Shown in pieces: positions 32,693-42,102 of a DNA stretch of 64,000 nt. Every line of letters starts with the position of its first letter. Position 1 is the stretch's first letter. The DNA is from Rubrivivax sp. (GTDB taxonomy: Bacteria > Pseudomonadota > Gammaproteobacteria > Burkholderiales > Burkholderiaceae_C), in contig JAUXRG010000064.1 in assembly GCA_030681795.1 (NCBI GenBank), forward strand, positions 1 to 64,000, in the 5' to 3' direction. The notes under the pieces were generated by a model. The model did not search any database, was not told the DNA's origin, and saw nothing but the letters and a program-made list of their open reading frames with translations. The position numbers were made by a program, and so were the translations under genes.

Positions 32693-34407
32693 GCCCGTTG
32701 GCTCGCCGCGCTGCGAATCGCCGTCAGCGTGGTGCGGCTGGTCGAGACCTCGGCATCGAGTTTCAGGTGCAGCAGCGTCGGCGTGCCGGCCTCGATGGCG
32801 CGCCGCAACGCGGGCTCGAAGTCTTCGGTGCGGTCCAGGAACTCGGCACGCCAGCCGTAGGCCCGGGCCAAGGCGGCGAAGTCGGGGTTGAAGAGGTCGC
32901 TGCCGCTCACCCGGCCCGGATACTCGCGCTCCTGGTGCATGCGGATGGTGCCGTAAGTGCCGTTGTCGACGACCACGCTGATGAGCTTGCCGGCGCCGTA
33001 GCCGGTGGCCGTGGCGAGCTCCTGGCCGGTCATGAGGAAGTCGCCGTCGCCGGCGAGGTTGACCACCCAGCGCTCGGGTTGCAGCAGCGCCGCGCCCACC
33101 GCCGCCGGCAGGCCGTAGCCCATGGCGCCCGAGGTCGGGGCGAGTTGCGTGCGGCCATGGTGCTGCAGGCCCGGGTAGCGGCAATAGCGGTGCAGCCAGC
33201 CCGAAAAATTGCCCGCACCGTTGGTGTAAATGGTGTCCTCGGGCAGCAGGCGCTGCAGGGTCTTCACGACCACCGCCATGTCCAGCGGCGCCACGCCGGG
33301 CGCCACCAGGTTGGCTTCGTAGTCGGCCCGCGCCGCCGCCGTGTGTTCGGCCCAGGGCAGGCTCGCCGGCGCGGCGAGGCCTTCGAGCGCCGGGGCCGCG
33401 CAAGCCATGGAGGCCTGCACCAACAGGTCCGCGGCATAGACACGGCCCAGTTCCTCGGCCCCGGCATGGATGTGCACCAGCTTCTGCGTCGGCCGCGGCG
33501 GTGTGAGCAGCGTGTAGCCGCCGGTGGTCATCTCGCCCAGGCGCACACCCAGCGCGATCACGAGGTCGGCCTCGCGGATGCGCGCCGCGAGCCTGGGGTT
33601 GGCGCCGATGCCCACGTCGCCGGCGTATAGCGGGTGGCGGTTGTCGAAGGTGTCCTGGAAGCGGAATCCACAGGCCACGGGCAGTTGCCAGGTCTCGGCG
33701 AAACGCTGCAGCGCCCATGCGGCCTGCGCGTCCCAACCCGAACCGCCGGCGATGACGATGGGCCGCTGCGCCTGCAGCAGCATGGCGCGCAGGCTGACCA
33801 AGGCGTCGGGCGCGGGCCAGGCCCGCACCGGCGCCACACGCGGCAGCACGGGGGCAGTGGTCAGTGACGACAACATGTCCTCGGGCAGGGCCAGCACCAC
33901 CGGGCCGGGGCGGCCCTGCATGGCGGTGTGGAAGGCGCGCGCCACGTACTCGGGCAGGCGCTCGGCGCTGTGCACCTCGGCGGCCCACTTGGCCAGGCCC
34001 AGGGTGCCGGGGCCGAACATCTGCCGGTAGTCGATTTCCTGAAAGGCCTCGCGGTCGCGCTGGTCGCCCGCCACCTGGCCGACGAACAACACCATGGGCG
34101 TCGAGTCCTGGAACGCCGTGTGCACGCCAATGGCTGCGTTGGTGGCCCCGGGGCCGCGCGTCACGAAACATACGCCGGGCCCACCACCGAGCTTGCCCTG
34201 CGCCTCGGCCATGAAGGCCGCGCCGCCCTCCTGGCGGCAGGCGATGAAGCGGATGCGCTCGCGGTGCTCGTAGAACCCGTCGAGCACGGCAAGAAAGCTC
34301 TCGCCGGGCACGCCGAAACAGGTCGTCACGCCTTGCGCAACAAGCGCTTCGACGAGGGCGTGGCCGGCCAGGCGTGCCGGGGCTGAGGAGGTAGGTAGGG
34401 AGGACAT
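32689..34407 (-). CDS. Thiamine-diphosphate-dependent enzyme, acetolactate-synthase-like
   Basis: 572 residues with the three domains of ThDP decarboxylases and synthases. The N-terminal PYR domain has GVPGESFLAVLDGFY and the catalytic Glu in CRQEGGAAFMAEA. The central domain (about 195-335) is followed by a C-terminal PP domain with GDGDFLMTG...VVVDNGTYG, the Mg-ThDP GDG-x-N motif. No acetolactate synthase small subunit is adjacent, so a catabolic role on a 2-oxo acid or an acyloin reaction is possible. The start used is the ATG at 34407; a GTG at 34416 is in frame. An MFS transporter gene lies 52 bp upstream in the same direction. Exact substrate unknown. Confidence 0.85.
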   Translation of the reverse strand: MSSLPTSSAPARLAGHALVEALVAQGVTTCFGVPGESFLAVLDGFYEHRERIRFIACRQEGGAAFMAEAQGKLGGGPGVCFVTRGPGATNAAIGVHTAFQDSTPMVLFVGQVAGDQRDREAFQEIDYRQMFGPGTLGLAKWAAEVHSAERLPEYVARAFHTAMQGRPGPVVLALPEDMLSSLTTAPVLPRVAPVRAWPAPDALVSLRAMLLQAQRPIVIAGGSGWDAQAAWALQRFAETWQLPVACGFRFQDTFDNRHPLYAGDVGIGANPRLAARIREADLVIALGVRLGEMTTGGYTLLTPPRPTQKLVHIHAGAEELGRVYAADLLVQASMACAAPALEGLAAPASLPWAEHTAAARADYEANLVAPGVAPLDMAVVVKTLQRLLPEDTIYTNGAGNFSGWLHRYCRYPGLQHHGRTQLAPTSGAMGYGLPAAVGAALLQPERWVVNLAGDGDFLMTGQELATATGYGAGKLISVVVDNGTYGTIRMHQEREYPGRVSGSDLFNPDFAALARAYGWRAEFLDRTEDFEPALRRAIEAGTPTLLHLKLDAEVSTSRTTLTAIRSAASQRA

Positions 34408-34459
34408 GAGCCGCACTGTAGCCCCAGTCCGTCCACTTCCCTCCAGGGCCGACGCAACC

Positions 34460-35713
34460 TCAGGCCACCGCGCTGGCCGGGACCCGAATGCGCCAGCCGA
34501 CCAGCACGGCCGAGATCACGCCCATGCCCATGGCGGCCGCGGAAGCCGCGAATACGGCGCTCTGCAATCCGTGGTCCATCAGCCAGCCGAACACCGGCGC
34601 GGCGGTGGCGAAACCCACGTCCAGGCCCGAATAGACCGTGCCGTAGACGCGCCCCGTGGCGCCGGGTGGCGCGGCGCGCTTGATGAGCATGTCGCGCGAG
34701 GGCCCGGCCAGCCCGGCGCCAAACCCGGCCACGGCCACCACGCCACCGGCGAGCAGCGGCGGCAGCAGGCCGGTGGCCACCAGCAGCAAGAGCGCGGCCG
34801 AGGTGGCCATGGCCAGGCCGATGGTGCGCTCGAGTGCCGCCACGCGCGCCGTGACGAAGCCCCCGACGAGCATGCCAGCGGCTCCGCAGAGCATGTAGCC
34901 GGTGACGACGAAAGCCGTGGCCGAGAGCGGCAGGCCGTACATGCGCGCCAGGGCCGGGCCGGCAAAACCCTGAATCGCCGAGAGCGCCGCGGTGGTCCAG
35001 AAGAAGAACGAGAAGCACAGCCACACCGAAGGCAGACGCAGGAAGGCCATGGGGTGCTCGGCCGGCGCACCGTGGGCGGGGTGGGCGCGCTCATGGGCCC
35101 ACTCGCCCCGGCGGTCGTCGATGACCTGGCGGTTCAGGGCCAGCAGCGCCATCACGCCCAGCGGCAGCAGGGCCGCGCTCAGGCACGCCGCGCGCCAGCT
35201 GCCGCTGAGTTCGCTGATGCCGATGAAGAACACCGGCGCCGCGGCCCAGCCCAGGTTGCCCGAGATGCCGTGCACCGAGAAGGCATGCCCCAGCCGCGGC
35301 GGCGAGACGCGCTTGTTGAGGATGGTGAAGTCCGACGGGTGGAACGGCGCATTGCCCAGCCCCGCCAGCGCCGCCGCCAGCACCAGCCCGGCGTAGCCCC
35401 CCGCGCTGGCCGCCGCCACGGCCGCCGCGGCAAAGCACGACAAGGCCGTGAAGAGCACCGGCCGCGCGCCGATGCGGTCCACCAGGAAGCCCGAGAGCGC
35501 CTGGCCGGCGCCCGAGATGACGAAGAACACCGTCATCAGCAGGCCGAGTTCGGAGTAGCTGAGGCCGAACTCCCGAATGAACGCCGGGAACAGCGGCGCC
35601 AGCAGCAGATGGAAGAAATGCGAGGTGCCGTGCGCCAGGCCGATGAGGCCGATGACGGTGAAGTCGCTGCGCCCGGTGGGAACGACGGCGGCCGGGGAGG
35701 AGGTGGAACTCAT
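34460..35713 (-). CDS. MFS transporter, fosmidomycin-resistance-like group
   Basis: 417 residues with about 12 membrane helices. The first helix region, [43 protein letters not shown], is characteristic of the Fsr/YfkF branch of MFS efflux proteins, as is [38 protein letters not shown]. The substrate cannot be predicted; branch members range from drug efflux to organic acid export. It precedes the ThDP enzyme gene on the same strand (52 bp) and may be cotranscribed, suggesting export or import of its substrate or product. It is divergent from nadA with 79 bp between starts. Confidence 0.85.
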
Positions 35714-35792
35714 GGCACGCAGGGTAAGGGCTTTGGGACGGCGAAGTTACGATAGCAGGACAAATTCTGTTTTGCAGAAGCCCCAGACCACC

Positions 35793-36905
35793 GTGACCCA
35801 GATCGCCTTCGACTACCCCCGCCCCGACGCCAGCGGCGTCACCTGCACCGCCCAGGCCTGGGCCAAGGTGCCCGCGACCCTGCCTCCGGCCGAGCGCCAA
35901 CGTGCGCTGGAGCGCGCCGCCGAGTTGCTCAAGGCGCGCGGCGCGGTATTGGTGGCGCACTTCTATGTCGATGGCGACCTGCAGGACCTGGCCCTGGCCA
36001 CGGGCGGCTGCGTGGCCGATTCACTGGAAATGGCGCGCTTCGGCCGCGACCACCCCGCGCAGACCCTGGTGGTCGCCGGCGTGCGCTTCATGGGCGAGAC
36101 GGCCAAGATCCTCTCGCCCGCCAAGCGCGTGCTCATGCCCGACCTGGACGCCACCTGCTCGCTCGACCTGGGTTGCCCGCCAGAGCCCTTCTCCGCCTTC
36201 TGCGACGCCCACCCGGACCGCCAGGTGGTGGTCTATGCCAACACCAGCGCCGCCGTGAAGGCGCGCGCCGACTGGATGGTGACCAGCTCATGCGCGCTGG
36301 CCATCGTGGCGCACCTCAAGGAACAAGGCCACAAAGTGCTGTGGGCGCCCGACCGCCACCTGGGCCGCTATATCCAGGAGCAGACCGGCGCCGACATGTT
36401 GATGTGGGACGGCGCGTGCATCGTGCACGACGAATTCAAGGGCCTGGAGCTCGAGCTGCTGCGCCGCCAGCACCCCGGCGCCCAGGTGCTGGTGCACCCC
36501 GAGTCGCCGCGCAGCGTGGTCGAGCAGGCCGACGTGGTGGGCAGCACCTCGCAGCTGCTCAAGGCCGTGGTGCAAGGCACGGCGCAGACCTACATCGTGG
36601 CCACCGACAGCGGCCTGATGCACCGCATGCATCAGCTGGCCCCCGGCAAGACCTTGATCGAGGCGCCCACCTCGGGCGCCAGCGCCACCTGCAAGAGCTG
36701 TGCGCATTGCCCGTGGATGGCGATGAACGCCGTCCAGGGCGTGCTGGATTGCCTGGAGCATGGCAGCGGCGAGATCACCCTGCCCGAGCCGGTCCGCGCC
36801 AAGGCGCTGGGCTGCATCGAACGCATGCTCGACTTCACCGCCCGGCACCCGCACAGCACGGCCGCGCCGCAGGGCGGCTTCGTGCCGCGCATCGGCGCGG
36901 CCTGA
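35793..36905 (+). CDS. nadA: Quinolinate synthase A
   Basis: [4Fe-4S] enzyme condensing iminoaspartate (from NadB) with dihydroxyacetone phosphate to quinolinate for NAD. About 370 residues show [43 protein letters not shown] (cluster Cys), [24 protein letters not shown] (cluster Cys), and the C-terminal [14 protein letters not shown] block with the third cluster Cys. The start is set at GTG 35793 from the expected N-terminus; a TTG 21 nt earlier is in frame. nadB lies 2.2 kb away on the opposite strand, and the comFB-GGDEF pair sits between. Confidence 0.95.
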
Positions 36906-37053
36906 CCCGAGGCCGGCCACGGGGCGCCGCTCCAGGTCTGCGCATGGAATCTGCATGTCCGCGTGGCGCACCGATCGGCGTATATCTTCGCTTCAGACCC
37001 GGCCCGGCCAGGCCGATATCCCGGCGTGCCCCGCGGTGGGGCGGAGACCGACC

Positions 37054-37344
37054 ATGAGCGCCGATTTCAGCTCGGTTCGAAACCACAACGAACGCGCCGT
37101 CTACGAGGCCGTGACCCGCCACGCCGAGCGCTTCCCCGGCCTGGCCGACAAGCCCGAGCTGCTCGCCGATGTGGCCTGCGTGGCGCTCAACCGCCTGGCC
37201 CCGCGCTACATCCGCCACGAGGTCGACTTCGTCTTCTACCTGAGTGAACGCGAGCGCGGCGACAGCGAACGGCAATTGCTCGACGCCGTGGAGTACGCCT
37301 TCGGCTTCGTGCAGGCACGCACGGCCATGAGGGCCCGTGGCTGA
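37054..37344 (+). CDS. ComFB-family protein, putative cyclic-dinucleotide receptor
   Basis: 96 residues. The block ELLADVACVALNRLAPRYIRHEVDFVFYLS is the core of the late-competence ComFB family (DVACLALN-LPPRYI). The protein is all helical, with no signal or membrane segment. ComFB proteins from cyanobacteria and Bacillus have recently been described as cyclic di-nucleotide binding proteins; that is family knowledge, not visible here. The start ATG 37054 has GGAG 9 nt upstream. The downstream GGDEF gene begins with GTG 8 nt before this stop, so the two are translationally coupled, which supports a c-di-GMP link. Confidence 0.8.
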   Translation: MSADFSSVRNHNERAVYEAVTRHAERFPGLADKPELLADVACVALNRLAPRYIRHEVDFVFYLSERERGDSERQLLDAVEYAFGFVQARTAMRARG

Positions 37345-39109
37345 ATCCGCTGCGCTGCTCGAGCAGGCCTGGGAACTGAGCTACCTGCGCCCGCTCGCGG
37401 CGCGTGACATCGGCCTGCGCCTGGCCTCCGCGGGTGGCCCGTACGCCGCGATGGGCTGGCTGCACGTGGCGCTGGCCGAAGTGCGGGTGGGCGACGCCAC
37501 CGTGGCCTCGGATGCGCTGCGGCGCGCCCGCCAGGCCTTTGCCGCGTCGCAGAATGTGCTGGGCCTGACCTGGTGCGACGAGATCCGTTCGATCGAGCTG
37601 CGCCGCGCGGGAGACTATGCCGGCTCGGCCCGCCTGCAGGCTGAAATCGATGGCCGCAGCGAAGTCGGCAGCGGCCCGATGTACGAGTTCGTCAGCCACA
37701 ACACGCGCGCCATCACCGCCAAGCTGCTGGGGCGCAACGATGACGCGCTGCGCCACTTCTACGCCGCCAGCGATGCCGCCACGCGCACCGGCTGGGCCGG
37801 GCCACGCATCATCGCCCTGTGCAACCTGGGCGGCTTCCAGCTGGCCTTGTACAACCTCGAAGACGCGCGCCGCCTCAGCGAAGAGGGGCTGGCCGCCGCA
37901 CGCGAGGCCGAGGTGGCACAGGCCGTGGTCACCGCGGCCACCAACCTCATCAACATCTACCACGCCGAGGGCGAGATGCGCCAGGCGCGTGCGATGGTGG
38001 ACTTTCTGGTCACGCACCAGAGCGACCTCGTTACCCAGATGCTTCCCCGCTATGCGCTGTCGTTGGCGCTGGGGCTCCTGGGCGTGGGCGAGATCGATGC
38101 GGCGCTCGTCCACCTCGAAGCGGGCGCCGTGGCCGCGGTGTCCGATGGTGACGGCCAGACCCTGTGGGCCTGGCTCAAGGCGCGCTGCCTGCTCGCCAAG
38201 GGTGACGCCCCGGGCGCCCGCGCGGTGGCCGAGCAGACGATGCAACAGCGCCGCCAACGCCAGCTGCAGGACCAGCCTTTCGAAACCATGCAGCTGCACC
38301 TCGCGCTGGCCGACGCCTGCGAGGCGGTGGGCGACACCGCCGCGGCACTGGCGTGCATGCGCGAAGCGCACGCGCGCTACGAGGAACTGGTCGGCCGCAG
38401 CGCGCGTGCGCGTTATGTCGCCCTGGAGGTGACGCACGAGCTGGCGCGCACGCAGCGCGAGCGCGACCGCGCGCTCGATTCGCACCGATCGGCCGAAGAC
38501 GACCGCCACCGGCTGGCCGAGCTCAACAGCGCCCTGCAAGCGCAGATCGCCGAGACCGAGCTGTTGCACGTCAGGCTGCGCGACCAGGCCTTGCGCGACC
38601 CGCTCACCGGCCTGCACAACCGGCGCTACCTGTTCGAGATGGCGCCGGGGCTGCTGGAATTGGCGCGCCGCCAGGCCAGCCCGCTGTGCGTCGCGCTGAT
38701 CGACCTGGACCACTTCAAGCTGCTCAACGACACCTATGGCCACCAGGCCGGCGACCAGGTGCTGCTGCGCTTTGCCACGTTGCTGACGCAGATCCTGCGC
38801 CGCAGCGACGTGATCTGCCGCCATGGCGGTGAGGAGTTCGTGGCGGTGATGCCGGACATCGACGGCGAAGGCGCGCAGGCCGTGCTCGGCCGCCTGCTCG
38901 AAGCCTTCCAGACGCAGCAGCCCGCCGAGCCCGGCCGGCGCCGCCTGCCCGGCGGCTCGTTCTCGGCAGGCATCGCGCTGTTCCCGCGCCACGGCCAGAC
39001 GCTGGAGCAGTTGCTCACGCGAGCCGACCGCGCCCTGTATGCGGCCAAGAACCACGGCCGTGCGCGGGTCGAGCTGGCCCCGGCCACGGGTTTCGGCACG
39101 CTCACCTGA
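37337..39109 (+). CDS. Diguanylate cyclase with N-terminal TPR-like repeats
   Basis: 590 residues from a GTG overlapping comFB by 8 nt. Residues about 1-370 are tandem helical TPR-like repeats rich in Ala (LGRNDDALRHFYAAS; LYNLEDARRLSEEGL; VGDTAAALACMREAHARY). A short coiled coil follows (about 375-415), then a GGDEF domain with DPLTGLHNRRYLFE, DLDHFKLLNDTYGHQAGDQVL and the active-site GGEEF at 497-501. The product-inhibition I-site RxxD is intact at 488-491 (RRSD), five residues before GGEEF. There is no membrane segment or signal peptide, so it is a cytosolic c-di-GMP synthase probably controlled by protein partners on the TPR. It is convergent with nadB, 27 bp apart. Confidence 0.9.
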   Translation: MAESAALLEQAWELSYLRPLAARDIGLRLASAGGPYAAMGWLHVALAEVRVGDATVASDALRRARQAFAASQNVLGLTWCDEIRSIELRRAGDYAGSARLQAEIDGRSEVGSGPMYEFVSHNTRAITAKLLGRNDDALRHFYAASDAATRTGWAGPRIIALCNLGGFQLALYNLEDARRLSEEGLAAAREAEVAQAVVTAATNLINIYHAEGEMRQARAMVDFLVTHQSDLVTQMLPRYALSLALGLLGVGEIDAALVHLEAGAVAAVSDGDGQTLWAWLKARCLLAKGDAPGARAVAEQTMQQRRQRQLQDQPFETMQLHLALADACEAVGDTAAALACMREAHARYEELVGRSARARYVALEVTHELARTQRERDRALDSHRSAEDDRHRLAELNSALQAQIAETELLHVRLRDQALRDPLTGLHNRRYLFEMAPGLLELARRQASPLCVALIDLDHFKLLNDTYGHQAGDQVLLRFATLLTQILRRSDVICRHGGEEFVAVMPDIDGEGAQAVLGRLLEAFQTQQPAEPGRRRLPGGSFSAGIALFPRHGQTLEQLLTRADRALYAAKNHGRARVELAPATGFGTLT

Positions 39110-39136
39110 GCGGCAGGCCGGCGCGCTGGCCCGGCC

Positions 39137-40756
39137 TCAGCGCGAGCTGCTCTTGGCCGGCCGCGTGAGCACCGTCGGAAAGCTCACCGGAAGCGGGTTG
39201 GGGAAGTCGCGGCTGAAGTGCAGGCCACGGCTCTCGTGCCGGCGCAGCGCCGAACGCACGATGAGTTCGGCGCAGACCACCAGGTTGCGCAGTTCGAGCA
39301 GGTCACGGGTGACGCGGAAGTTGCGGTAGTAGTCGGTGGTCTCGTCGCGCAGCAGCTTGATGCGGTGCAGCGCCCGCTCCAGCCGCTTGGTGGTGCGCAC
39401 GATGCCGACGTAGTTCCACATCACCAGCCGCAATTCGTCCCAGTTGTGCGAGATGACCACCTGCTCGTCGGCGTCCTCGACCTGGCTCTCGTCCCAGGGC
39501 GGCAGCGCCGGGGGTTCGCGCGTGGCGTCGAGCACGATGCGCTCGGCGCAGGTGCGCCCCACGACCACGCACTCGAGCAGCGAATTGCTCGCCAGGCGGT
39601 TGGCGCCGTGCAGACCGGTGTAAGTGGTTTCGCCCACCGCGAACAGGCCGGGCAGGTCGGTGCGGCCGTCGAGGTCGGTGACCACGCCACCGCAGGTGTA
39701 GTGCGCGGCGGGCACCACCGGGATGGGCGCGCGGGCGATGTCGATGCCGAGCGACAGGCAGCGCGCGTGGATGGTGGGAAAGTGCTCCTTGAGGAAGGCC
39801 TCGCCCAGATGGCGTGCATCGAGCCAGACATGGTCCAGCCCGTGCTTCTTCATCTCGAAATCGATGGCGCGGGCGACGATGTCGCGCGGCGCAAGCTCGC
39901 CCCGGGCATCGTGGGCGGGCATGAACCTCGTCCCGTCCGGCAGGGTGAGCTTGGCGCCTTCGCCGCGCAGCGCCTCGGTGATGAGGAAGCTGCGCTCCTG
40001 CGGGTGGTACAGGCAGGTCGGGTGGAACTGGATGAATTCCATATTGCCGACGCGGCAGCCGGCGCGCCAGGCCATCGCGATGCCGTCGCCGGTGGCGGTA
40101 TCCGGGTTGCTCGTATAGCGGTAGACCTTGCCCACGCCGCCGGTGGCCAGCACCACTGCGGCGGCAGGCAGGGTCTCGACGCGACCCGAGTCGATGTCCA
40201 GCGCATAGACGCCGTAGCAGCGCGGCGCCTCCTTGCGCTTGAGGTGGCGTGAGGTGATCAGGTCCACCGCCATCCAGCGCTCGCGCAGCGTGATGTGGGG
40301 GTGCGCCTTGGCGCGCGCCAGCAGGGCGTCGTGAATGGCCTTGCCGGTGGCGTCCGCGGCGTGGGCGATGCGTCGCACGGCATGCCCGCCTTCGCGCGTG
40401 AGGTGCAGGCCCAGCGGTCCGCTGGGGTCGGGCGAGAAAGGCACCCCGGAGGCCACCAGCCACTCGATGGCGCGGGCGCTGTTCTCGGCGATGAAGCGGG
40501 CGGTGTGCTCGTCGACGATGCCGGCGCCGGCGTCCTGGGTGTCGCGCACATGCGAGGCGATGCTGTCGTCGGGCCCCAACACGCCGACGATGCCCCCTTG
40601 AGCCCAGGCCGTGGCACCTTCATTGAGTTCACGCTTGGCCAGAACGATCACCGGCAAGTGGTCGGCCAGATGCAGCGCCACGGCCAGGCCCCCCAGGCCG
40701 GCACCGATGATGACCACGGGCGCCGGTGCGGCAGCGGTGGAGGAAGTGGCATTCAT
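39137..40756 (-). CDS. nadB: L-aspartate oxidase
   Basis: FAD enzyme oxidising L-aspartate to iminoaspartate, the first step of de novo NAD synthesis and the partner of NadA. The 539 residues show the FAD dinucleotide fold [20 protein letters not shown], the succinate-dehydrogenase-like [24 protein letters not shown], and [47 protein letters not shown] near 370-420. The C-terminal helical domain ends in [15 protein letters not shown]. It is monocistronic, convergent with the diguanylate cyclase and divergent from the unknown gene at 40840. Confidence 0.95.
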
Positions 40757-40803
40757 GTTCGTGATCCGTCTAACGCAATCGGCGTGACCCGGTCGGATTC
40801 TAC

Positions 40804-40827
40804 GGACCCCTGCCTGGAGGCAGGTCC
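40804..40827. promoter_or_regulatory. Inverted repeat between nadB and the divergent unknown gene
   Basis: A CCTGCC-TGGA-GGCAGG hairpin with flanking GGA/TCC arms lies 12 bp before the ATG at 40840 and 48 bp before nadB. No run of T follows, so it is not a terminator. It could be an operator or a leader hairpin. A TAGAAT hexamer for nadB (40802-40797, minus) lies next to it. Confidence 0.35.
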
Positions 40828-40839
40828 TATCATCCGCGC

Positions 40840-42102
40840 ATGAGCTCAGCCCGCGACAACCCGCCCAGGCAAGACGCCCACCGCGGCTTCTCCCCGACGG
40901 AACTGCTGGCCCCGCGAACGCAGATCGTCGCCGACCGTGAGGCCTACCTGGGCCAGGGCACCCATGACGTCGGCCGGCGCATCTCGGACGACCAGGTCGA
41001 GCTCTTCATCTCGGCCGACGTGGCCAGTTCGCTGCAGCAGGAATTCAGCCTGCATACGCCGGAGTTCGTGGCCCTGCACGATGTGGGCCCCAGCGCATCG
41101 CTGCGGTTGCTCAGCAGCCTGGCCAGCGCCGCCAGTGCACGCGTGCAACGCCTGTCCGTGCGCAGGCAGGGGCATGGCGTGGCGCTGGCTGTCATCCAGT
41201 TCGTGGAAGTGCCACTGGCCGACGGCACACCGGTGCGCGTGTACTCCACCGACATCAACGCCGACGCCGCCACGCGGGCCCATGTGGCGAGCGTGCTGCT
41301 GGCCTTCAGCCGCCTGGGCGTGCTGCTCATCGGCGAACTCCCGTCGAATGCGCTGGCCGGGCAGCTCGCGCCCTTGCAGGAATCCCTGCGTCGCGGGCCC
41401 TGGCCGAACCGCGACCTGCTCCTGGTGCCGCTGGGCACGACCAGCACGCTGGCCACGCAGGCCATCGAGCTCGGCGGCCAGAGCGCCGTGGCCGTGCATG
41501 TGACGCCCCGCGCCAGCCGGCCGAAGCAGGCATGGGCCTTCATCAGCGGCTCGTGGAACCGTCTGCATGGCATGCCCAATGGCGAACGCGCGCTACCCAC
41601 CGAAATGGCGTTGGCGGTGCCGCGGCCCAGCGTGCCCGAGCCTGAAGCGGCAACCCAGCCCATGGAGCTGGGCCCGGCGCAGGCGGGCGCGCCCCGGGCG
41701 CCACCGGCACCGCAGCCGACCCTGCCCATGCCCATGCCGGTGCCCGGCGGCACGAACTGGCAAACCTACGCCAACCACTGCGCGCTCATCAAGGGCGCCA
41801 TCAGTTGCTGCGTCTTCGACATGCACAGCGCAGAGCCGCTGGCGCACGCCGGCGGCACACCGCGCGGCGACCGCCTGGCGGAGCAAGGCGTGGCGCTGCT
41901 GGCGCAGGTCAACACCGCCGCGCGCGCGCTCGGCCTGGGCGCGGGCAAGGCTGAGGCCGGCATCAGCACGGCCAGCCACCACCTCCTGCTGCGCGAAGTG
42001 CCCGGCCACCCGGGCGTGGCGGTGCACCTGGTGGTCTCGGCCGGGACCGGCAACCTGATGCTGGCGCGCCTGCAACTCGAGCGCGTCGAACCGCCCAAGT
42101 AA
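40840..42102 (+). CDS. Unknown two-part protein with possible roadblock-like C-terminal domain
   Basis: 420 residues without signal peptide or membrane segment. The N-terminal part (about 30-245) is mixed alpha/beta and not recognised. A Pro/Ala-rich, probably disordered linker (about 260-310, many P and M) joins it to a C-terminal domain (about 312-418). The order of that domain, helix, [17 protein letters not shown], long helix [44 protein letters not shown]-type strand, resembles the roadblock/LC7 fold of GTPase-associated proteins. The resemblance is by pattern only. It is divergent from nadB and convergent with clpB, in a single-gene unit. Confidence 0.6.

Follow-up and report, generated by a model that had tools for sequence, protein, structure and literature searches.

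A gene for a small ComFB-type protein that runs directly into a gene for a diguanylate cyclase raises the question of whether the two products work together, one supplying a cyclic dinucleotide and the other reading it. Such a pair lies in a stretch of 64,000 nucleotides from Rubrivivax sp. (assembly GCA_030681795.1, contig JAUXRG010000064.1, positions 1 to 64,000 of the forward strand), which is referred to here as the window. The first gene, comFB, encodes a protein of 96 residues, and the second encodes a cyclase in which TPR-like repeats are joined to a GGDEF domain. In our assessment there is about an even chance that the two genes specify a co-translated, dedicated local pair of source and receptor for cyclic di-GMP (c-di-GMP). 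A preliminary description of the locus, made from the DNA letters alone, had named both proteins, an overlap of 8 nucleotides between their genes, and intact GGEEF and RxxD motifs in the cyclase; all of this was confirmed by matches to PF10719 and PF00990, by an AlphaFold2 model, and by the sequence itself.

The two proteins and the overlap of their genes

The 96-residue protein matched the ComFB family PF10719 with an E value of 3.9e-18 (65.7 bits, curated cut-off 25), which was its only Pfam match at E values up to 1, and had no NCBIfam match at E values up to 0.01. It is the only ComFB protein found in the window genome (4.18 Mb in 122 contigs, 93% complete). Its structure model, with a predicted local distance difference test (pLDDT) value of 81.5, displays the ComFB fold, and the best fold matches were 4wai (ComFB of Bacillus subtilis) and 8hja (c-di-GMP-bound CdgR), the latter also being matched at the level of sequence profiles (E=2.7e-6). 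The conserved residues N, E, D, N, and Y, described as forming the ComFB dimer interface (PMC4381287), correspond, by a motif-based mapping from the numbering of that paper, to N10, E13, D39, N46, and Y52. Specifically, E13, D39, N46, and Y52 are conserved in all 56 rows of the genus alignment and in all 68 other rows of the family, and N10 in 56/56 and 67/68, respectively. This set and an LNRLP stretch are among the residues that the window protein has in common with 8hja. The four-cysteine zinc site of B. subtilis ComFB (4wai) is missing, C42 being the single cysteine, and unlike in B. subtilis no comFA or comFC gene was seen adjoining comFB in the window. Since the aligned stretch of CdgR has no cysteine either, the zinc site does not define the family and is taken to be a feature of a Bacillus subgroup.

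The AlphaFold2 model of the cyclase (mean pLDDT 87.2) features 17 helices in residues 2 to 331, followed by a long helix and the GGDEF part, and, together with the Pfam matches, it shows a layout of TPR part, helix, and GGDEF domain. The TPR matches themselves are weak, the best one (PF13424, E=2.9e-06, 27.8 bits) falling below its cut-off of 30.1, and no membrane or periplasmic part is apparent. Of 30 named orthologs, 26, all of full length, retain both GGEEF and RxxD; the four remaining ones are without the domain, two being cut at contig ends, one carrying an in-frame stop (Rubrivivax rivuli), and one being devoid of the GGDEF part (L365). Judged by its sequence, the protein bears the intact catalytic and inhibition motifs expected of an active diguanylate cyclase. 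The ratio of nonsynonymous to synonymous substitution rates against four relatives amounts to about 0.2 to 0.4 for the cyclase gene and to 0.1 to 0.2 for comFB.

A start codon at the place of the 8-nucleotide overlap was found at 24 of 33 loci possessing the cyclase (cyclase-positive) versus 6 of 115 others (2 of the 23 others within the genus). In these counts, loci sharing an identical 3' end entered only once, a degenerate copy in genome G894 was treated as cyclase-positive, and L040 (G115), which has a cyclase but no overlap start, was placed among the negatives, as it was in the motif and codon counts; moving it to the positives changes the start-codon result to 24/34 versus 6/114. Arg95 of ComFB is invariant in the genus (56/56), and it is encoded by CGT in 23 of 32 cyclase-positive genes versus 3 of 75 negative ones; CGT followed by G within comFB provides the GTG start of the cyclase. 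At four other conserved arginines of the same cyclase-positive genes, CGT is used in 5/33 (Arg51), 4/33 (Arg54), 2/33 (Arg68), and 3/32 (Arg89). The nine of 33 cyclase-positive loci that have no overlap start use CGT in no case, and for the most part they have usable starts from -3 to +62 nucleotides relative to the comFB stop. The overlap thus looks to be under selection, beyond what chance would give, mainly because of the within-gene contrast between Arg95 and the four other arginines, and the translational coupling proposed in the preliminary description is strengthened by this synonymous-codon signature and by the conservation of the overlap. A promoter and terminator scan revealed no promoter-like site in positions 35500 to 39500, and no Rfam match was obtained in 34000 to 42000.

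Distribution and covariation of the pair

ComFB is present in 55 of the 81 genomes searched in the GTDB genus Rubrivivax. When residues 1 to 421 of the cyclase were used as the query, 48 of the 81 genomes gave matches, 34 of them strong (E at most 1.3e-49); the weak ones (25 to 38% identity) are located far from comFB or on a different contig, with the exception of the broken G894 copy. comFB stands directly upstream of 32 of the 33 assessable strong orthologs, the exception being genome G868; the ortholog of G896 could not be assessed, as its contig begins inside the cyclase gene. If G894 is included, a cyclase or its remnant follows comFB in 33 of the 55 ComFB-containing Rubrivivax genomes, two of which have a broken cyclase gene. 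Among the best 80 of 381 ComFB loci in the named set, the cyclase stood behind comFB in 30. The pairing persists while the identity of the TPR part among paired orthologs falls as low as 42%, and it extends to one genome of another genus (G115), which excludes a restriction of the adjacency to a single strain. A chance adjacency or an annotation artefact, for which nothing speaks except the abundance of GGDEF genes, is refuted by the profile matches, the conserved adjacency, and the codon signature, and we consider it extremely improbable.

The evolutionary distances of comFB track those of the GGDEF part beyond what is explained by nadB (partial r 0.44, p 0.0045) and do not covary with those of nadA (partial r -0.05, p 0.63); these values belong to eight partial Mantel tests on 22 of 27 loci, with uncorrected p values.

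Outside the genus, the picture is determined by comFB without the cyclase. A sample of 200 genomes of the family contained 69 with ComFB, and all 69 loci were read. The cyclase occurs at four of them, namely, in the window genome, in two other Rubrivivax genomes, and in G115; weaker homologues elsewhere in the family (e.g., in G139, G053, G091, and G133) are not located beside comFB. In a sample of 300 genomes of the order, ComFB was found in 2, the window genome and one more of its family, and in a sample of 369 genomes of the class in 56, the window genome included. An adjacency of comFB and GGDEF genes across the Burkholderiales, suggested in the preliminary description as something to search for, was therefore not found. 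A general association was not borne out either, as a GGDEF gene lies beside comFB at 5 of the 69 family loci, i.e., at the four with the orthologous cyclase and at one with a PilJ-PAS-GGDEF gene (G061). Among 55 loci of the class sample, two from one genus have a GGDEF protein encoded just downstream on the same strand, with an EAL-like part recognized by reading, and three further loci have a GGDEF gene at greater distance. Given 32 rows of GGDEF matches in the window genome, the independent events are, by informal judgment, too few to exceed the background. The pair is a clade-level addition; comFB as such has a broader distribution in the family, where it mostly occurs without this cyclase. 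Of the local signaling module envisaged in the preliminary description, the adjacency, the overlap, and the motifs hold and are conserved.

The nad locus and the genes beside comFB

The coordinates of the pair and its neighbors are given in Table 1. The NadA domain begins only at residue 115 of the open reading frame (ORF), so that the true nadA start is probably located further downstream. Between nadB and clpB, an ORF of 420 residues (40840-42102, + strand) has no Pfam match at E values up to 1e-4.

Table 1. Features of the comFB-cyclase region, in positions of the window
Feature	Position	Strand	Basis and remarks
nadA ORF (quinolinate synthase)	35577-36905	+	PF02445 E=2.7e-100; upstream of comFB
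comFB	37054-37344	+	ATG start, 96 residues; ComFB/CdgR-fold protein, putative c-di-GMP receptor
8-nucleotide overlap GTGGCTGA	37337-37344	+	Cyclase GTG start within last codons and stop of comFB
TPR-GGDEF diguanylate cyclase	37337-39109	+	GTG start, 590 residues; PF00990, AlphaFold2 model
TPR-like helical solenoid, cyclase residues 2-331	37340-38329	+	AlphaFold2 secondary structure; weak Pfam TPR matches
Long helix, cyclase residues 334-420, linking TPR part to GGDEF	38336-38596	+	AlphaFold2 secondary structure
GGDEF domain, cyclase residues 418-576	38588-39064	+	PF00990 E=1.2e-44
RxxD inhibition site (RRSD), cyclase residues 488-491	38798-38809	+	Sequence
GGEEF active site, cyclase residues 497-501	38825-38839	+	Sequence
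nadB (L-aspartate oxidase)	39137-40756	-	PF00890 E=3.7e-98; TIGR00551 E=4.7e-184; convergent, downstream

The position of the pair between nadA and nadB was described correctly at the outset; as a clue to function it did not hold up. Of the 69 family loci, 51 have nadA on the comFB strand no more than 2 kb upstream, either directly or with nadC intervening (20 loci), 47 have nadB in convergent orientation within 6 kb downstream, and 45 have both in place. These frequencies favor the view that ComFB belongs to de novo NAD synthesis, which it would tune by a dinucleotide signal received from the cyclase. The convergent nadA/nadB arrangement, however, persists where comFB is absent, occurring within 15 kb in at least 55 of 84 genomes that have nadA and no comFB (in the rest, nadB is on another contig or not among the matches listed in 17, the genes are apart in 7, and they have another orientation in 5), and it is hence no evidence for a role in NAD metabolism. 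Moreover, neither nadA nor nadB is in place at 16 of the 69 family loci, and at 55 ComFB loci of the class that lie outside this family, the flanks retrieved (at most 5 kb per side, less at contig ends) showed no nadA, nadB, or nadC gene. A link of comFB to NAD synthesis was therefore rejected and appears very improbable. The nadA/nadB setting is an ancestral address of the gene in this family and says little about its function.

The slots next to comFB are occupied by different genes in different lineages, including the cyclase, a methyl-accepting chemotaxis protein (MCP), other GGDEF proteins, an HD-domain gene, and a pilin gene. The unrelated MCP, pilin, and HD-domain genes that fill the slot between comFB and nadB in other members (and, by reading, genes for a TonB-type receptor and a phospholipase-like protein) lend support to a mere co-expression of the pair, in which the cyclase landed behind comFB, borrows its transcript and ribosomes, and feeds the common c-di-GMP pool, with ComFB serving a separate pathway. 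In line with this, a cyclase is not a rare neighbor in a genome with so many GGDEF matches, directly neighboring GGDEF genes at comFB loci trace to only about four lineages across the samples, and G868 retains the cyclase alone. What co-expression leaves unexplained is the long persistence of the pair across divergent TPR parts, the codon signature of the overlap, and the covariation of comFB with the GGDEF part and not with nadA; we rate it as rather unlikely.

Individual loci illustrate the variety of neighbors. At L265, L266, L267, and L268 (R. benzoatilyticus and R. gelatinosus group), a chemotaxis receptor of about 600 residues takes the place of the cyclase between comFB and nadB (dCache-HAMP-MCP by Pfam in L265, the others similar by reading). 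Two strains of R. gelatinosus, R. benzoatilyticus JA2, and one more have an MCP next to comFB. L275 and L278 (G878 and G898) have a different GGDEF protein encoded between nadC and comFB, which in L275 (G878) has 634 residues and a HAMP-GAF-GGDEF architecture by Pfam, and an ORF of 210 residues downstream of comFB; a similar ORF of L272 has no Pfam match. The HD-domain gene lies beside comFB on the opposite strand in L072, the pilin gene is found in L097, and ORFs for the TonB-type receptor and the phospholipase-like protein occupy the slot in other members. A second type of family locus (L034, L055, L086, and L090) has, by reading, an amidohydrolase-like gene directly upstream of comFB and, on the opposite strand, an acyl-CoA synthetase-like gene (4/4) and an enoyl-CoA hydratase-like gene (3/4).

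In other gammaproteobacterial families, an ApaG-domain gene is found in the same stretch as comFB at 17 of 72 clustered loci. It lies directly downstream on the same strand in L132, L141, L147, L148, L153, L165, L168, L173, and L181; 7 of these 9 have an rRNA adenine dimethylase gene upstream, and 5 of the 9 have an apaH-like phosphoesterase gene downstream, the latter assigned by reading. ApaH cleaves diadenosine tetraphosphate (Ap4A), and comFB at the class loci bearing apaH thus also has a neighbor concerned with a nucleotide signal.

Ligand, mechanism, and relation to known systems

ComFB proteins are described as a newly recognized family of cyclic-dinucleotide receptors occurring in many phyla; the protein of Synechocystis binds cyclic di-AMP (c-di-AMP) with a Kd of 2.6 uM and, as cited there, c-di-GMP with a Kd of 1.7 uM, and binding of the two dinucleotides is also reported for CdgR of Nostoc (PMC12313861). 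The receptor function ascribed to the family in the preliminary description agrees with these cyanobacterial data. A profile search detected no DAC domain, which carries out c-di-AMP synthesis, in the window genome, and none above the cut-off in the 200 genomes of the family (two weak matches remained below it; controls were positive in 11/14). As no c-di-AMP synthase was found, a resident enzyme could make only c-di-GMP out of the two ligands known for ComFB. On these genomic grounds, home-made c-di-AMP is an unlikely ligand and c-di-GMP a plausible one, and c-di-GMP binding by the window protein is proposed by analogy with the work on CdgR and ComFB. Our literature search yielded no ligand or role for a proteobacterial ComFB.

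For the dedicated pair, the following sequence of events may be envisaged. Together, the TPR solenoid and the long helix would restrain the cyclase until it is switched by a protein partner, a gating assumed by analogy with RcbB (PMC12282931). The c-di-GMP formed would be read first by the ComFB dimer, which would be produced from the shared mRNA in a fixed proportion, and we infer that the product is used locally. Loaded (or empty) ComFB would then act on the same target as the stand-alone ComFB proteins of the family. If the target is indeed shared, the cyclase would represent a dedicated input acquired by a receptor that is older. A CRP-family regulator is one conceivable target, as reported for CdgR and DevH (PMC13075795).

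The components of this scheme have counterparts elsewhere. The window ComFB shares the fold and the dimer-interface residues with the cyanobacterial receptors of c-di-GMP or c-di-AMP (Slr1970 and Alr3277; 8hja; PMC12313861 and PMC13075795) and differs from them by its coupling to a cyclase. According to the second of these papers, CdgR is held to read the global c-di-GMP pool, unlike the local pair proposed here. By domain layout, the cyclase resembles RcbB of Vibrio vulnificus, a TPR-GGDEF enzyme encoded in a two-gene operon, in which the TPR part exerts a repression that the operon partner RcbA relieves (PMC12282931). RcbA, however, is a TPR protein, whereas the partner in the window is ComFB; since the neighbors of the cyclase gene are comFB upstream and the convergent nadB downstream, the locus is not filed as rcbAB. 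In the SiaC-SiaD system of Pseudomonas aeruginosa, a small operon partner is said to act together with a cyclase bearing a helical stalk, and SiaD reportedly has no TPR part, in contrast to the window cyclase. The structure of SiaD with its activator SiaC (7e6g) was matched by the cyclase model with E=5.4e-10, much of which is explained by the GGDEF part alone; the matches listed for this search, in which the whole cyclase served as the query, were GGDEF structures. As ComFB has no Pfam match besides PF10719, it is not a SiaC protein. Receptors of B. subtilis that pair with cyclases reportedly belong to families other than ComFB, DgrA being of the PilZ type and YdaK a degenerate GGDEF protein. 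In that organism, DgcK-YdaK and DgcP-DgrA each combine a cyclase and its cognate receptor into a local pair via direct contact (PMC7064775). Each component, the ComFB receptor, the TPR-GGDEF enzyme, and the pairing of a cyclase with its receptor, is thus known by itself, and their combination is new for ComFB as far as the literature search shows: no ComFB-cyclase operon was found described in a search conducted mostly at the level of titles and abstracts, with thin coverage of subscription journals.

These systems suggest another role, in which ComFB is the switch of the cyclase, a small protein from the same operon that binds to the TPR solenoid or the long helix and activates or represses the enzyme, with c-di-GMP binding providing feedback. 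The action of RcbA on RcbB and of SiaC on SiaD, the match to 7e6g with the reservation given above, and the tight overlap, which favors a fixed ratio of ComFB to cyclase, speak for it. Such a switch cannot be the general role of ComFB, which occurs without this cyclase at 65 of the 69 family loci, and the weak covariation of comFB with the TPR part, the cyclase without comFB in G868, and the failure of CdgR to bind diguanylate cyclases in Anabaena (PMC13075795) argue against it as well; we therefore regard it as somewhat improbable. An elaboration of the dedicated pair, likewise unlikely in our view, is a physical receptor-synthase complex, in which the ComFB dimer, co-translated with the cyclase at a fixed ratio, would bind to the TPR solenoid and, in its c-di-GMP-loaded state, gate the enzyme that feeds it.

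Several observations weigh against a dedicated pair. Beyond the family loci lacking the cyclase, 22 of the 55 ComFB-containing Rubrivivax genomes are without it, including R. gelatinosus and R. benzoatilyticus. Conversely, the locus of G868 reads nadA-nadC-cyclase-nadB, with no comFB between nadC and the cyclase, the frame of which is still open. Two comFB-linked cyclase genes are broken, that of R. rivuli (L304, L302) by its in-frame stop and that of L365/L289 (G894) as a GGDEF-less remnant. With the TPR part, comFB covaries weakly (partial r 0.25, p 0.09), and the value drops to 0.03 (p 0.41) when nadA and GGDEF are also held fixed. As for the overlap, the Fisher values for contrasts between cyclase-positive and cyclase-negative loci ignore kinship, and only 3 independent supported pairs are available for a kinship-aware comparison, which is too few. 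On the side of the receptor, the strongly conserved proteobacterial stretch R51-Y52-[IV]-R54-H55-x-x-D58 is missing from CdgR save for Y52 in the alignment with 8hja, so that retention of the ligand pocket of CdgR is not established. Finally, CdgR of Anabaena did not interact with major diguanylate cyclases in a two-hybrid assay (PMC13075795).

If the complex of ComFB and cyclase exists, it would be the first ComFB protein with a private cyclase and a feedback module complete in itself, attachable to a receptor of older origin. A ComFB protein whose translation is linked to that of a single cyclase, in a family where c-di-AMP synthases were not detected, offers a natural test of the ligand of proteobacterial ComFB proteins and bears on whether c-di-GMP pathways can be insulated by placing synthase and receptor on one mRNA. 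Ready comparisons are provided by the Rubrivivax species that have the cyclase and those that lack it, some of them with another signaling gene in the slot.

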